A stretch of DNA of 20,119 nucleotides from a virus. Position 1 is the stretch's first letter. Every line of letters begins with the position of its first letter. A model generated the notes under the pieces. That model did not search any database, was not told the origin of the DNA, and worked only from the letters and a program-made list of their open reading frames with translations. A program made the translations under genes and the position numbers. Location of the stretch: IMG/VR virus record IMGVR_UViG_3300027770_000317, positions 1 through 20,119 of that record. The stretch is one strand, 5' to 3'. Positions 8,307 through 19,556 of the stretch are shown here, in pieces.

Positions 8307-8507
8307 ATGACTACAGAGGCAGAAATCAGAGACGACCAAAGAACTAGGCCGCGACAACTGAATCCTGACGAAATCGTCTGGCTCAGGAAACGTCTTAGAG
8401 AAAAAAAATTCTCTCAAAAATGGATTACGGCCATAGAATATTATCCGTTGCAGTCTAAACCAACCAAAGCGATACTTTACGGAATGATAATAGCTCTGCA
8501 AAACTAA
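8307..8507 (+). CDS. Small basic protein of unknown function
   Basis: A 66-residue protein with ribosome binding site ATGAGGAATT before ATG, separated by 6 bases from the preceding gene and coupled by TAATG to the VRR-NUC gene. It is rich in Arg and Lys (QRTRPRQLNPDEIVWLRKRL) and probably helical. The shape suggests a small nucleic-acid-binding or regulatory protein, but no motif supports this. Its place in the replication/recombination operon is clear. Confidence 0.65.
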   Translation: MTTEAEIRDDQRTRPRQLNPDEIVWLRKRLREKKFSQKWITAIEYYPLQSKPTKAILYGMIIALQN

Positions 8508-8896
8508 TGAAGGAAAGCCAGCTTCAATTGGCCGTGACGAAGTGGCTGACCTACCATAGAATCGTTTGGTGGCGTATGCCTCTGGGCGCGATAATTCATA
8601 GTGTCGGCGGAAAACAGATTTTTCGAAAAAATCCCTTAAAAGGGTTCCCGGACATTGCCGGAATATGCCAAGGAAAAGAGCGCGGTAGATTTTTTTCCCT
8701 TGAGTTAAAATCTGATTCTGGCCGCATGACCTTAGAACAAAAACACTGGCAGAATGAAATCATATCAGCCGGTGGATTTCATGCAGTCATCAAGTCAATC
8801 GACGACTTGGAATCAGTCATGGTTGAATGGGGTGAACACTCCGGAAAATTCTTGGTTGGTAAAAATAAACATTTACCCGAACGTAAAAATAAGTAA
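8507..8896 (+). CDS. VRR-NUC domain nuclease
   Basis: A 129-residue protein, the typical size of stand-alone phage VRR-NUC proteins. The PD-(D/E)XK core is intact: KGFPDIAG (D49), FFSLELKSDSG with E66 and K68, then LEQKHWQNEIISAGGFHAVI as in the family (..Q..w...l...Gg...vv.s.dd). VRR-NUC enzymes cut branched DNA and act as Holliday-junction resolvases. Here it would resolve intermediates made by the RecE-like nuclease and ERF annealing protein. It starts in TAATG. It is the last gene before the structured non-coding segment. Confidence 0.88.
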   Translation: MKESQLQLAVTKWLTYHRIVWWRMPLGAIIHSVGGKQIFRKNPLKGFPDIAGICQGKERGRFFSLELKSDSGRMTLEQKHWQNEIISAGGFHAVIKSIDDLESVMVEWGEHSGKFLVGKNKHLPERKNK

Positions 8897-8900
8897 AATG

Positions 8901-9013
8901 AAACCCGATCTAAAAAAGCAGAGTTGAGGTGCTTTCGATAGAACGGGTTTCGGTGCTGGAGGACACGATTTGGAAAATACCAAATTCCTTCCAATACTGT
9001 CAAGCCAGGGCGA
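8901..9013 (+). ncRNA. Putative structured non-coding RNA, 5' segment
   Basis: No credible gene lies between 8897 and 9056, but the strand folds well. One arm is a long hairpin with 7-bp base AAACCCG/CGGGTTT (8901-8907 with 8944-8950), then ATC/GAT, then AAAGCA/TGCTTT closing a 9-base loop. A second domain has ATTTGG/CCAAAT (8968-8973 with 8980-8985) within a GGA..TCC helix reaching to about 8994. It ends in the 18-base repeat that recurs at 9797-9814 behind the next gene. I read it as the first part of an RNA continued at 9798-10250. It could instead be an independent leader. The strand is inferred from the neighbouring genes. Confidence 0.5.
8996..9013. repeat. 18-base direct repeat, left copy, flanking the PAPS-reductase-like gene
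   Basis: ACTGTCAAGCCAGGGCGA, which matches the copy at 9797-9814 at 16 of 18 positions. The invariant core is GCCAGGGCGA. The two copies bracket the PP-loop gene and lie at its junctions with the structured segments. Confidence 0.65.
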
Positions 9014-9056
9014 ATAAACGTCAAACATTTAATATTAAGACGTAACGAAAATAAAC

Positions 9057-9797
9057 ATGGATAAAGCAACAAAAAGAGTTGTTTGTTGGTTTTCAGCTGG
9101 TGTTACCAGTGCTGTTGCGGTCAAACTTGCAAAAGAACAAGGTCCGGTAACAATTGCCTATTGTGACACCGGCGCAGAACACGTTGATAATTTACGTTTT
9201 ATTGCCGATTGCGAAAAATGGTTTAATCAAAAAATAATTATACTTCGTTCAAAAAAGTACGCCAGCGTTTGGGAGGTTTTTGAAAAAACCAGATATTTGA
9301 GCGGCGTTAATGGCGCAAGATGCACTACCGAAATGAAGAAACTAGTGCGACGAAACTTCGAAGACTTAAATAACGATTTACAGGTTTTCGGATTTGACGC
9401 TACCGAGAAAAAACGCGCAGATAAATTTTTAGCAAATAATCCAGAAGTAACCGCATGGTTTCCTTTAATAGAGCAAAACTTAACAAAACAAGACTGCATA
9501 GACAAAATATTAAGCGCAGGCATAAATATTCCTGAAATGTATAGACTTGGTTACAAGAATAATAATTGTATTGGATGCGTTAAAGGCCAGGCTGGTTACT
9601 GGAATAAAATTAGACTTGATTTCCCGGAAGTGTTTGACCGTATGGCGAAACAAGAGCGCGAACTAAATGCCGCAATTTGTAAAAGTTATGCAAAAGATGG
9701 GAAAAGAAAAAAGGTTTTTTTGGATGAATTGCCGTTAGATATGGGCCGCTATGAATCCGAAATTGAAATTAAATGTGGCTTAATTTGTGGGGAATAA
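9057..9797 (+). CDS. PAPS-reductase-like PP-loop protein (adenine nucleotide alpha-hydrolase family)
   Basis: A 246-residue protein. The N-terminal PP-loop is present in a modified form (WFSAGVTSAVA, residues 11-21, in place of the usual SGGxxS), followed by TIAYCDTGAEH (family pattern: D/N-T-G), GARCTTEMKK with Cys89, and GFDATEKKRAD. A second half holds NNNCIGCVKGQAGYWNK (Cys171, Cys174) and a C-terminal CGLIC (Cys240, Cys244), which could form a metal or Fe-S site. Phage members are often named phosphoadenosine phosphosulfate reductase, but real PAPS reduction is doubtful. Nucleotide or tRNA thiolation, or DNA-modification chemistry as in DndC relatives, is equally possible. No clear Shine-Dalgarno precedes ATG. 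The codons are richer in A and T than those of the neighbours, and the gene sits between repeats inside a structured segment, all suggesting later insertion. Confidence 0.82.
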   Translation: MDKATKRVVCWFSAGVTSAVAVKLAKEQGPVTIAYCDTGAEHVDNLRFIADCEKWFNQKIIILRSKKYASVWEVFEKTRYLSGVNGARCTTEMKKLVRRNFEDLNNDLQVFGFDATEKKRADKFLANNPEVTAWFPLIEQNLTKQDCIDKILSAGINIPEMYRLGYKNNNCIGCVKGQAGYWNKIRLDFPEVFDRMAKQERELNAAICKSYAKDGKRKKVFLDELPLDMGRYESEIEIKCGLICGE

Positions 9798-9814
9798 CTG
9801 TTAGGCCAGGGCGA
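9797..9814. repeat. 18-base direct repeat, right copy
   Basis: ACTGTTAGGCCAGGGCGA, beginning at the last base of the PP-loop stop codon and matching 8996-9013 at 16 of 18 positions. This copy also forms part of a 6-bp hairpin (TTAGGC with GCCTAA at 9826-9831), which the left copy cannot form locally. Confidence 0.65.
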
Positions 9815-10250
9815 TCAACCAAAAAGCCTAAAAACTATGGGATTCGATTTCAAAATACCTGAAATCGACAACGTTGCGGTAATGGCCGCGAGGGTAATCC
9901 AGTCGTCGGTAAAAAGATTTGGTCTTCGGACCATTGGGGAACCTTGATCGACGGATTAAATGCTTGGGGAGAAATCCAAGCGACTTAGACTATAGCTCTC
10001 CAATCGGGAGGGTGCTTTGCGGGACGCGGTAACGCTAGTTGCAAAGTAGATTGTGGGTTCTTACCAAGTATCTGTTGAGCATTTTGAGAAAAAAATTTCC
10101 AAAATATTCCTTAGATATTTAGTCAGACCCCATAATTGAGTGAAGGTCCGAGTAGCCGGTCAGTGATACCGGGCAATCCCTACGTCTTGAGTAAGCAGGC
10201 TCATGCGTAAGTAAGAGGGAAGAACCCGACTATTGCGTAAAATTAGTAAT
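9798..10250 (+). ncRNA. Putative large structured non-coding RNA, 3' segment
   Basis: The ~500 bases between the PP-loop gene and the HTH gene contain no plausible coding frame but many consecutive helices: TTAGGC/GCCTAA (9801, 9826); TCGATTTC/GAAATCGA, 8 bp (9844, 9861); GCGG/CCGC (9876, 9886); ATCC-GTCG with CGACGGAT (9897-9956) enclosing TGGTC-TTCG-GACCA, a UUCG tetraloop; GCTTGG/CCAAGC (9962, 9976); CTCTCC with GGAGGG (9996-10012); CTTTGC/GCAAAG (10015, 10041) enclosing GCG-GTAA-CGC, a GNRA tetraloop; ATTTTG/CAAAAT (10081, 10100) with an inner GAAA/TTTC; GTAG-CCGGT/ACCGG with CTAC (10152-10183). UUCG and GNRA loops on well-paired stems are marks of a conserved folded RNA. Candidates are a giant phage RNA (the GOLLD and ROOL kind) or a group I intron core. 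I cannot assign the family. Confidence 0.6.
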
Positions 10251-10294: not shown

Positions 10295-10546
10295 ATGTTA
10301 AACACGCAACAAGCTAGAAGCTACCTTGCAGTGTCGATGAGTACGATTCACAAATGGGTAAAGAACGGTGAAATCCCCTGTCATCGGCTGGGCAGAAATT
10401 GGCGGTTCTACAAAGAAGAACTCGATCAATGGGTGCTTAATGGTGGGGCCGCTTATAAGTATGACGACAAAAAAATTGAGGAACTGAAAAATGAACAAAG
10501 CAATCCTGATGGGCAGACTGGGAACGGACCCGAAACCGATTGGTAA
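10295..10546 (+). CDS. Excisionase/MerR-like HTH protein (helix-turn-helix 17 type)
   Basis: An 83-residue protein with the compact winged HTH of the excisionase family: MLNTQQARSYLAVSMSTIHK, then WVKNGEIPCHRLGRNWRFYK, then EELDQWV, covering residues 1-47. The rest is a polar, probably disordered tail. ATG is preceded by AAAGGAAAAAACACTTT. Such proteins act as Xis, repressors or activators. No integrase is visible in the window, so a regulatory role is as likely as excision. The last 56 bases overlap the start of the SSB gene in another frame, which is long for this otherwise compact genome. Confidence 0.82.
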   Translation: MLNTQQARSYLAVSMSTIHKWVKNGEIPCHRLGRNWRFYKEELDQWVLNGGAAYKYDDKKIEELKNEQSNPDGQTGNGPETDW

Positions 10547-16906: not shown

Positions 16907-17179
16907 TTGAATACTTTTGATCCAAAAAACTGTCGATATTCGAGCCAGTGGCGAACGGATAATGCAACGAAGAACGATTGGTTTAAAATGATTGATACCA
17001 TTATGTATATGTGGGATCGAGTTGATGACAAAACGTTGCGCGGTCATGTGGCCCCCGATAGATATTTTGAATTAGAAAACGCGGTAAAAAAAATGGGCGG
17101 CGCAATTATAGAAAAAAAATTAGACCTAATCGCCGGTAAAGAATGGGTAAAAATTAGAGAGCCGAAAGGATTAAAATGA
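16907..17179 (+). CDS. Tagged small head-region protein A (N-terminal NTFDPKNCRYSS tag)
   Basis: A 90-residue protein starting at TTG with GTGGAG nine bases upstream, one base after the MuF stop. Residues 1-20 (MNTFDPKNCRYSSQWRTDNA) are the shared tag also found at 18807 and 19098. The body (MIDTIMYMWDRVDDKTLRGH, then YFELENAVKKMGGAIIEKKL) is helical and unrelated to the other tagged proteins. The tag is conserved in the DNA as well: 22 bases at 16923-16944 differ by one base from the copies at 18323 and 19117. The location between the minor head protein and the prohead-protease gene suggests a protein packed in or attached to the head. Function unknown. Confidence 0.75.
   Translation: MNTFDPKNCRYSSQWRTDNATKNDWFKMIDTIMYMWDRVDDKTLRGHVAPDRYFELENAVKKMGGAIIEKKLDLIAGKEWVKIREPKGLK
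16923..16944 (+). repeat. Tag-coding repeat, copy in protein A
   Basis: 22 bases coding for the core K-N-C-R-Y-S-S of the shared tag. It differs from the copies at 18323-18344 and 19117-19138 by one base (CGATAT instead of CGGTAT). Confidence 0.8.
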
Positions 17180-17679
17180 ACTGGCATCCAACTTTCAAAT
17201 GTTTTGTCGATTCTGGGTTAGCTCAAAACGCATTAGAAATACAGCCTCATCCTAAAGAGGTTGCGGATTTGGACGACGAACAAATTAAAAAAGTTAAAGA
17301 TCGTTTTAAAGAACAGCCTAAAAAATATGACTTAGATAAAATGGCAAAAAAAATTGCCGACCTAGAGCAAAATCTCAAAGCCGTAAAGTTAAAGGGAACG
17401 CCGGAACAATATCGCAAATTACAAGACGAACTAGAAAAATTTAGTCGTCAATATCAGTCTGTTTACAAAAACGAGCCAAAGATATCACAAAATTGGACCC
17501 AGTGGGCTTTAGACAAACAATTCAAAACTCGATTTAAAGAATTGAATTATTGCAAAATTCCGCCAAATCAATGGTCTTTTGTTTCGACGGAAACCAATCA
17601 ACCAATTGGTATGAGGTATGCGTCAAAAGTTGAATTGCTTGCCGACCTTGATCGTTTCGCTCGCGAATATGGGTTATAA
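17176..17679 (+). CDS. Unknown head-region protein with coiled coil
   Basis: A 167-residue Lys-rich protein starting with ATG in an ATGA overlap with the preceding gene. Residues ~28-98 are strongly helical and heptad-like (DDEQIKKVKDRFKEQPKKYD, then LDKMAKKIADLEQNLKAVKL, then YRKLQDELEKFSRQYQSVY). A C-terminal domain follows (YCKIPPNQWSFVSTETNQPI, then RYASKVELLADLDRFAREYG). It carries no N-terminal tag, unlike its neighbours. The sequence is not recognised. Its position suits a capsid-internal or scaffold-like protein. Confidence 0.7.
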   Translation: MNWHPTFKCFVDSGLAQNALEIQPHPKEVADLDDEQIKKVKDRFKEQPKKYDLDKMAKKIADLEQNLKAVKLKGTPEQYRKLQDELEKFSRQYQSVYKNEPKISQNWTQWALDKQFKTRFKELNYCKIPPNQWSFVSTETNQPIGMRYASKVELLADLDRFAREYGL

Positions 17680-17680
17680 A

Positions 17681-18640
17681 ATGCCGACCTATTTAGACTT
17701 AACAAAAAATCGTTATAGCTCCAGGCACGTTGTCGAGAACGCAAAAGACCCGACATCAACTAACGAAGGATTCAAAGGATTTGATGACCCTTGGAAGGTG
17801 ATGTCACCGGAAGACCGAAAGGAAGCCAATCGTTTGTTTAAGCTGACCATGAAAGCCTTTGCTTGTTCACCGAAACAAAAAGAGCTTTCCGACCAATTAC
17901 AAAAGATCCTCTCCAAATACGGTATCGGCGCTGAAATAAAACGTAACAGCGAATACCGGATGGATAATGATTCCGCATGGACTTTGTCGGCTATACGGTC
18001 GATTACAACAAAAGAACAGTTTGCCGAGGCTGTAAAGTGGTTTGTAAAAACCATGAAAGACGGGAATAGATTGACAGAAAGCCAGCACGAAGCAATCAAA
18101 GGAACGCTTGAAGACAAGGCCGAAAAACTTGGTTTGTCGGTGCGCGATTTAAACAGAAAGAACAATTCAAAAATCCCTAAAACTCAGGCCGAGTATGCTC
18201 TCGAAGTAAAAAAACTTGAGGACGAAGGATTAACTACGTCTGATGCTCAGGGCGAAGTTGATGCTAGGCTTATGTCGGCAGGGTACGACGTTAATACATT
18301 AAAAAAAATCGACAAAAAATTAGCAAAAAACTGTCGGTATTCGAGTCAGTTTGCCCATCGATTTAAAGTTAACGAATCCATAAAAGAGTCTCGCGAGAGG
18401 GGCTTTAACGATGCAATGCTGGCTGTTTCAAACGTTCTGCAATCATGCAAATGGAAAATACAAAGCAAAAAAATAAAGCCTCCGTATGCTACTTTGATTT
18501 GTGTTCCAGAAACCGAACACAGCGAACCTATGCGGTTTGTTAGTAACAAAATAAATAGTATATTTGTTGACGCGAAGGTAAAATCTTTGTCTCAAACCTT
18601 CAAAGCAGAAATCGAAATAATTATAAGTCCACTAGGATAA
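17681..18640 (+). CDS. Multi-tag head-region protein B (three tag-like elements)
   Basis: A 319-residue protein. ATG at 17681 directly follows the previous stop. A longer frame from 17618 would add 21 residues lying inside the previous gene. The N-terminus carries a variant tag (K9-N-R-Y-S-S14, then VVENA). A partial tag, KRNSEYRMDND, occurs at residues 87-97, and a full core, AKNCRYSSQF, at 215-224. The last is coded by the same 22 bases as in the gene at 19098. The segments between the tags differ: an acidic helical part, a helical repeat-like part (LTESQHEAIKGTLEDKAEKL), and a C-terminal alpha/beta domain (RGFNDAMLAVSNVLQSCKWK, ending FKAEIEIIISPLG). It reads as several tagged proteins fused in one chain. 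Function unknown. Confidence 0.75.
   Translation: MPTYLDLTKNRYSSRHVVENAKDPTSTNEGFKGFDDPWKVMSPEDRKEANRLFKLTMKAFACSPKQKELSDQLQKILSKYGIGAEIKRNSEYRMDNDSAWTLSAIRSITTKEQFAEAVKWFVKTMKDGNRLTESQHEAIKGTLEDKAEKLGLSVRDLNRKNNSKIPKTQAEYALEVKKLEDEGLTTSDAQGEVDARLMSAGYDVNTLKKIDKKLAKNCRYSSQFAHRFKVNESIKESRERGFNDAMLAVSNVLQSCKWKIQSKKIKPPYATLICVPETEHSEPMRFVSNKINSIFVDAKVKSLSQTFKAEIEIIISPLG
18323..18344 (+). repeat. Tag-coding repeat inside protein B
   Basis: 22 bases identical to 19117-19138, here in the middle of a coding region and in the same reading frame (K-N-C-R-Y-S-S). An internal copy in frame argues for fusion or duplication of a tagged gene. Confidence 0.85.
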
Positions 18641-18652
18641 GAAGAATAAAAA

Positions 18653-18823
18653 ATGAATCGCGTCATGGAACAAAATATTGCCGAAAACTATGTGTTAAAA
18701 TTGGTCGTCGCAGCTTGCGAAGCTAAGGCCATTGACGAGATGTATTTAAGTCAAATAGTTGACGCTTTGATCGAGGCCGGTTGCGAAATAAATTTAGGGG
18801 ACGGATATGAACAACACCTTTGA
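18653..18823 (+). CDS. Small 56-residue protein between tagged genes
   Basis: A short frame with ATG preceded by AGGATAAGAAG, 12 bases after the stop of protein B, ending TGA 17 bases inside the next gene. The product (MNRVMEQNIAENYVLKLVVA, then EAKAIDEMYLSQIVDALIEA, then GCEINLGDGYEQHL) is a compact helical protein with no tag. It fills an otherwise empty 166-base gap, and the GGGGACGG of the next gene lies within it. Coding is likely, function unknown. Confidence 0.6.
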   Translation: MNRVMEQNIAENYVLKLVVAACEAKAIDEMYLSQIVDALIEAGCEINLGDGYEQHL

Positions 18824-19091
18824 CCCAAAAACTTGCAGGTTTTCGAGTCAATACCGGATGGATAATGGCAACGAAGAAATCAGACAAAAACTTGTTTCTA
18901 TTGTTACGCAATATGACCAGAAACAAGAAAAAAAAAGCAAAAGTTATAATCCTTACGCTTTGGCTCAAATGTTAGAATCCGCCAATGCCATCGCAAGTTT
19001 GATTCAAAAAGGAACGCCGGTCGATCAAGCTATCGACGAATATTTTTTGGATAGACTAGCCGATTTTGTAAAATCAAAAATGAGGAAATAA
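18807..19091 (+). CDS. Tagged small head-region protein C
   Basis: A 94-residue protein with AGGGGACGG before ATG. Residues 1-20 (MNNTFDPKTCRFSSQYRMDN) are the shared tag. The body is helical and Lys/Gln-rich (NEEIRQKLVSIVTQYDQKQE, then YNPYALAQMLESANAIASLI, then PVDQAIDEYFLDRLADFVKS). It has no similarity that I can see to the bodies of proteins A or D. It lies six bases before the next tagged gene, so they are co-expressed. Function unknown. Confidence 0.75.
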   Translation: MNNTFDPKTCRFSSQYRMDNGNEEIRQKLVSIVTQYDQKQEKKSKSYNPYALAQMLESANAIASLIQKGTPVDQAIDEYFLDRLADFVKSKMRK

Positions 19092-19097
19092 AAAACA

Positions 19098-19556
19098 ATG
19101 AACAACACTTTCGACCCAAAAAACTGTCGGTATTCGAGCGAGTATCGGATGGATAATGCTAACAACGAAACCGCTAATCCAAATAAATTAAAAGAACGAA
19201 TGTCAGTTCGTCTGAAATCTAACCCGTCTCAAACCGGAAAAATCAGATATTTTACCGATGACGGCGGAATAACAAAAGCGGTTGTCCTATGGGATAACGA
19301 CCCTACTTTCAAATTGGATGATTTAGCTTCTCTTGATTCTCTGATTGCTAAAAACGGAAAAACTAAATCAGCGGAAAACTCGCGCAAAACAAAAACAGAA
19401 ATTCAAAAAATGAGCATTGCGGAAATTTTGCAGGCCATAAGAACAAAATCATTGACCTATGCTGAAGTTGATGACGCCTTAGAAGAAATAAAAGAATTTT
19501 CTAAACTAGATCGTATTGGGGACGCATTAGCAAAAGACGACTTAAAAGGAAAATAA
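19098..19556 (+). CDS. Tagged small head-region protein D
   Basis: A 152-residue protein. ATG is preceded by GAGGAAATAAAAAACA. Residues 1-20 (MNNTFDPKNCRYSSEYRMDN) are the shared tag. Two parts follow. A small beta-rich segment (KIRYFTDDGGITKAVVLWDN) is flanked by SNPSQTG and PTFKLDDLASL and resembles an SH3-like fold. A helical C-terminus follows (MSIAEILQAIRTKSLTYAEV, then DDALEEIKEFSKLDRIG). It ends one base before the DUF2213 gene. Function unknown. Confidence 0.75.
   Translation: MNNTFDPKNCRYSSEYRMDNANNETANPNKLKERMSVRLKSNPSQTGKIRYFTDDGGITKAVVLWDNDPTFKLDDLASLDSLIAKNGKTKSAENSRKTKTEIQKMSIAEILQAIRTKSLTYAEVDDALEEIKEFSKLDRIGDALAKDDLKGK
19117..19138 (+). repeat. Tag-coding repeat, copy in protein D
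   Basis: 22 bases identical to 18323-18344, coding the tag core K-N-C-R-Y-S-S. The protein C copy near 18826-18848 is more diverged in DNA (ACTTGCAGGTTTTCGAG) but keeps the protein pattern. Confidence 0.85.

Follow-up and report, generated by a model that had tools for sequence, protein, structure and literature searches.

Between the VRR-NUC-like nuclease gene and the HTH/excisionase-like gene of this phage the + strand probably encodes a large structured non-coding RNA that stands alone, measures about 550 nt, belongs to a family outside Rfam and consists of a 5′ domain (about 8897-9013) and a 3′ domain (about 9815-10250) that fold separately. The region is structured, has no coding signal and is conserved in a relative phage, where it occurs in a form free of any ORF. 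The DNA analysed, here called the window, is a virus record of 20,119 bases, i.e., a 20-kb fragment. The stretches at 8897-9013 and 9797-10250 are one RNA interrupted by an ORF at 9057-9797, a relationship that the preliminary description had missed.

The locus and its uninterrupted form in relatives

Along the + strand, an Erf-like recombinase gene is followed by two unknown genes, a small ORF, the VRR-NUC-like nuclease, the RNA region, the HTH/excisionase-like gene and SSB. A single clear gene, the ORF of the PAPS-reductase family, is found between the nuclease and HTH genes. The sole tRNA of the window is a tRNA-Asn (1884-1959), 7 kb from the RNA region. Beside it is an ORF on the − strand (2039-2851) that, by its motifs, we take to have the look of a papain-type (C1) cysteine peptidase. 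The main features of the locus are as follows.

8507-8896, + strand: VRR-NUC-like nuclease gene, complete (PF08774, E 3e-4, under the family cut-off; phrog_93, 1e-10)
About 8897-9013, + strand: 5′ domain of the RNA, immediately behind the stop codon of the VRR-NUC gene (98% identity to L087/L093; z −3.87 for 8897-9056)
8996-9013, + strand: 5′ copy of a near-direct repeat, ACTGTCAAGCCAGGGCGA (single copy in the relative)
9057-9797, + strand: PAPS-reductase-family ORF in the hinge of the RNA (PF01507, 2.6e-8; phrog_424, 3e-58)
9797-9814, + strand: 3′ counterpart of that near-direct repeat, ACTGTTAGGCCAGGGCGA (identical to the 5′ copy at 16 of 18 positions)
About 9797-10250, + strand: 3′ domain of the RNA (z −5.67; 82-84% identity to the relative, with similarity clear up to about 10236)
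10295-10546, + strand: HTH/excisionase-like gene, complete (PF12728, 1.4e-14)

Whether viral contigs were searched with the nuclease or with the HTH protein, the matches were the same two contigs (L087 and L093), in which these proteins are 89% and 96% identical to their counterparts, respectively. The nuclease and HTH genes of both contigs are about 575 nt apart, and the PAPS-reductase ORF is absent from between them. In an alignment, 8897-9013 and 9797-10250 together correspond to one unbroken block in L087/L093. These two contigs do not differ over the RNA stretches compared and were therefore counted as one sequence, the relative.

An 18-nt near-repeat lies at both edges of the insert in the window, versus one copy in the relative. 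This arrangement suggests either that the ORF was gained with duplication of the hinge or that recombination between the copies removed it from the relative. No helix of probability >0.22 spans the insertion point in the relative. The insert would therefore sit in a hinge, with a domain folding separately on either side, which fits the intact pairing of the window RNA after the split.

Since one RNA part precedes the ORF and the other follows it in the window, the two might also be taken for untranslated regions of a PAPS-reductase mRNA, structured to protect or control it. We regard this as very improbable. The RNA persists in the relative, where the ORF is missing, and only 3 of the 45 PAPS-reductase loci examined (80 were fetched) have an ORF-free stretch of at least 200 nt within 1 kb. 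One of these three, L077 from another phage, was folded, and its stretch downstream of the PAPS-reductase gene folds like shuffled sequences (z −0.54). A general pairing of PAPS reductase with flanking RNA was also rejected, although an ORF-free stretch of L077 just upstream of the PAPS-reductase gene (2687-2976) folds more stably than shuffled sequences (z −3.08). An Rfam search of L077 and L038 gave no match.

Elsewhere in the window, several small ORFs in 16907-19556 start with an almost identical peptide, M(N)NTFDPKNCRYSSQ.RMDN, a further internal copy of which occurs in 17618-18640, and the region cross-matches repeats in a relative contig. These small ORFs appear to share an N-terminal tag.

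Folding, covariation and coding potential

Both parts of the RNA are more stable than dinucleotide shuffles. The z-score is −5.67 for 9798-10250, with none of 100 shuffles as stable, and −3.87 for 8897-9056, with none of 200 as stable. When the + strand was scanned in 200 windows of 200 nt, the RNA windows were among the lowest (−4.12, −3.43, −2.90, and −2.76), and windows inside the ORF between the RNA parts were near 0. The lowest value of the scan (−4.97) belongs to 1201-1400, which covers the end of the ORF at 497-1252 and the gap before 1310; this stable fold is perhaps a terminator. The helices of the RNA are as follows.

8900-8951, + strand: hairpin GAAACCCG/CGGGTTTC, by folding, with inner helices 8909-8912/8939-8942 and 8915-8920/8930-8935
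9844-9868, + strand: 9-bp hairpin TCGATTTCA/TGAAATCGA, by folding
9895-9958, + strand: helix TAATCC.GTCG/CGACGGATTA around an invariant internal loop and the UUCG hairpin 9920-9933, by folding
9961-9982, + strand: hairpin with 2 two-sided compensatory changes (GCTTGG/CCAAGC versus GTTCGG/CCGAAC), from the consensus fold with the relative
9995-10013, + strand: hairpin GCTCTCC/GGAGGGT, by folding
10013-10048, + strand: hairpin with 4 two-sided compensatory changes and an inner GCG-GUAA-CGC (10026-10035), from the consensus fold
10049-10137, + strand: helix GATTGTGGG/CCCATAATT around hairpin 10066-10120, by folding and alignment to the relative
10156-10172, + strand: 3′ hairpin CCGGT/ACCGG, by folding
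10181-10209, + strand: 3′ hairpin TACGT..TGAGT/GCTCA..GCGTA, by folding

The dense series of helices reported in the preliminary description, at least for those it named, is present in this fold. Its UUCG tetraloop on TGGTC/GACCA is found at 9920-9933 and is unchanged in the relative. Its GTAA tetraloop on GCG/CGC is present in the window, but the corresponding hairpin of the relative reads GCGG-GAAG-CCGC, and therefore the GNRA loop itself is not conserved. Hairpin 10066-10120, with 3 two-sided changes, exceeds its counterpart in the relative by 32 nt.

The preliminary description had proposed a search for homologous intergenic regions with covarying base pairs, and both were found. Covariation here refers to two distinct sequences only, the window and L087/L093. 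To avoid circularity, pairs were taken from the fold of the window RNA alone and then scored on the relative. By this measure 141 pairs are unchanged, 9 change on both sides with pairing kept, 7 change on one side, 4 are broken, and 15 are gapped, so that 4 of the 20 variable ungapped pairs break. In 2000 re-dealings of the 51 substitutions over like bases, two-sided changes averaged 0.66 (maximum 5) and broken pairs 18.5 (minimum 10). The reverse test, in which the relative was folded and the window scored, gave 10 two-sided changes, 3 one-sided changes and 7 broken pairs. All 15 variable pairs stay intact in the consensus fold of the two sequences, a test that is partly circular. Covarying base pairs, by which a structured non-coding RNA is recognized, are thus present between the two sequences.

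The RNA of the window is 90% identical to that of the relative over 536 ungapped columns. Its first 240 nt are about 98% identical, with 95-100% in each 40-nt block, compared with 71% at the third codon positions of ten flanking genes. Together these comparisons clearly point to selection that preserves the folded RNA.

No coding signal was found in the region. Only one stretch of at least 100 nt in the window, 9795-10249, is without stop-free segments of 60 codons in every one of the six frames, and 8897-9013 is covered by chance frames only, which agrees with the earlier view that these segments lack plausible genes. Four frames of the relative gave no convincing protein family match, and a 38-aa frame had no match in phages. 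A 36-codon frame at 9837-9947 (MGFDFKIP...) looked protein-like by eye and was rejected, with no match beyond chance in phages, PHROGs or Pfam. Over its 111 nt there is one change between the phages, a replacement, and no silent changes; at 71% third-position identity, about ten silent changes would be expected. The earlier proposal of a large folded non-coding RNA is therefore borne out by stability, two-sided covariation, conservation far above synonymous sites, and the lack of both a coding signal and a family match.

A long structured 5′ leader acting in cis on the downstream HTH-SSB genes, e.g., as a riboswitch, attenuator or translational control element, is a rather unlikely alternative to a stand-alone RNA. 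The RNA shares its strand with the HTH gene and comes immediately before the start of that gene at 10295, a position that is conserved in the relatives. However, usual leaders are far shorter than about 550 nt with many hairpins, and similarity to the relative drops about 50 nt before the HTH start. There is also no terminator-like site at its 3′ end. Promoter- and terminator-like sites are no more frequent than by chance, which speaks against a stand-alone RNA.

Searches for further homologues and known families

We did not find a third lineage in pattern and protein scans of viral contigs or in scans of genome contigs. The pattern GTAAGCAG..CGTAAGTAAG and the patterns CATAATTGAGTGAAGG, CGACTTNGACTATAG, and CCTAAAAACTATGGG each hit the two relatives and chance matches only among viral contigs. 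Pattern scans of genome contigs gave 0 matches in one and 13 chance matches in the other. A model of 163 positions of the 3′ domain (R1) found nothing in 398 genomes of the phylum of a Colwellia MAG, 298 genomes of the phylum of a Nautiliaceae MAG, or the 5 genomes behind chance loci, and the VRR-NUC protein had no relative in 369 genomes. A BLASTN (word 11) against phages and plasmids returned the PAPS-reductase gene or chance matches only. The RNA is absent from NrS-1, WC36-2 and phi1422, and from the compared DNA of four terminase relatives (L094-L097). Two candidates were rejected: a weak match in L075/L076 is the reverse of a 124-codon frame resembling a repressor, and a match in L112 is inside a long coding frame. 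With no third lineage, the structure is drawn from two sequences.

The covariance-model check against Rfam that the preliminary description had named also yielded no family. At gathering scores, Rfam 15 found nothing in the whole window apart from the tRNA-Asn at 1884, and at E values up to 10 the RNA region and the continuous relative gave chance-level matches only. The same tool found the T4 nrdD group I intron, our positive control, at 105 bits. The GOLLD covariance model had no match at E≤10 in three records, a search that lacked a true GOLLD as positive control. The ROOL model had no match in three records, but its control genomes gave none either, so that this result is weak alone. The lack of an Rfam match upholds the earlier suggestion of a possible new class, a claim drawn from two distinct sequences. 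A literature search found no paper on this RNA among titles and abstract openings.

An ORF within a structured RNA is intron-like, and a self-splicing or self-cleaving ribozyme, e.g., a much altered group I intron with its ORF in a peripheral loop, was also considered. On a reading by hand, GACTA (9988-9992) and TAGTC (10120-10124) resemble a group I P7. In the relative, however, one end of this P7-like helix is an A-G mismatch, and Intron_gpI had no match at E≤10 in the window or the relative, although the T4 intron was readily detected. The VRR-NUC and HTH genes are both complete and therefore no exon is split. The inserted ORF is not a homing endonuclease. We judge a ribozyme to be distinctly unlikely.

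Proposed role and comparison with known RNAs

As a stand-alone RNA, the element would be transcribed together with the replication/recombination gene block, and the transcript would fold into a stable RNA. It may act in trans as an RNA scaffold, as has been proposed for GOLLD and ROOL, an analogy and not a homology. The PAPS-reductase gene would be an accessory gene in the hinge between the domains, with neither domain broken.

A more speculative view, possible but doubtful, is that this is a new ornate RNA class whose hinge is a cargo slot, either empty or holding a whole enzyme gene. The loaded form would be mRNA and large structured RNA in one molecule, which perhaps encloses its own message or serves it as a scaffold, in the way that GOLLD may enclose its linker tRNAs. 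The RNA occurs in both an empty and an ORF-carrying form, and thus the linker/cargo idea is directly testable. Few classes of very large phage RNA are known, and their functions are open. The present RNA is shorter than many GOLLD RNAs, and two genomes suffice to name its helices.

The likeness to GOLLD and ROOL raised in the preliminary description holds in kind, as a large, ornate, phage-borne RNA, but not in homology, for which the models gave no support. Like a group I intron (RF00028), the element is a phage RNA that is structured and contains an ORF; unlike one, it has no model match, splits no gene, and carries an ORF that is not an endonuclease. ROOL (RF03087) is also a large phage-borne RNA and is of similar length (model of 574 positions), but there is no model match and the RNA here is away from any tRNA island. 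ROOL is a very abundant transcript that forms a homo-oligomeric cage. GOLLD and ROOL are both reported to form cages of unknown use, and many GOLLD members are >800 nt (PMC12286853), as against about 550 nt here. GOLLD (RF02032) also differs in the lack of a model match and in its location near tRNA islands, whereas the one tRNA of this 20-kb fragment is distant. There is also a likeness between the two as large ornate phage RNAs that carry something within: the GOLLD linker is reported to carry tRNAs at times (PMC12286853), and the hinge of the RNA in the window carries a protein gene.
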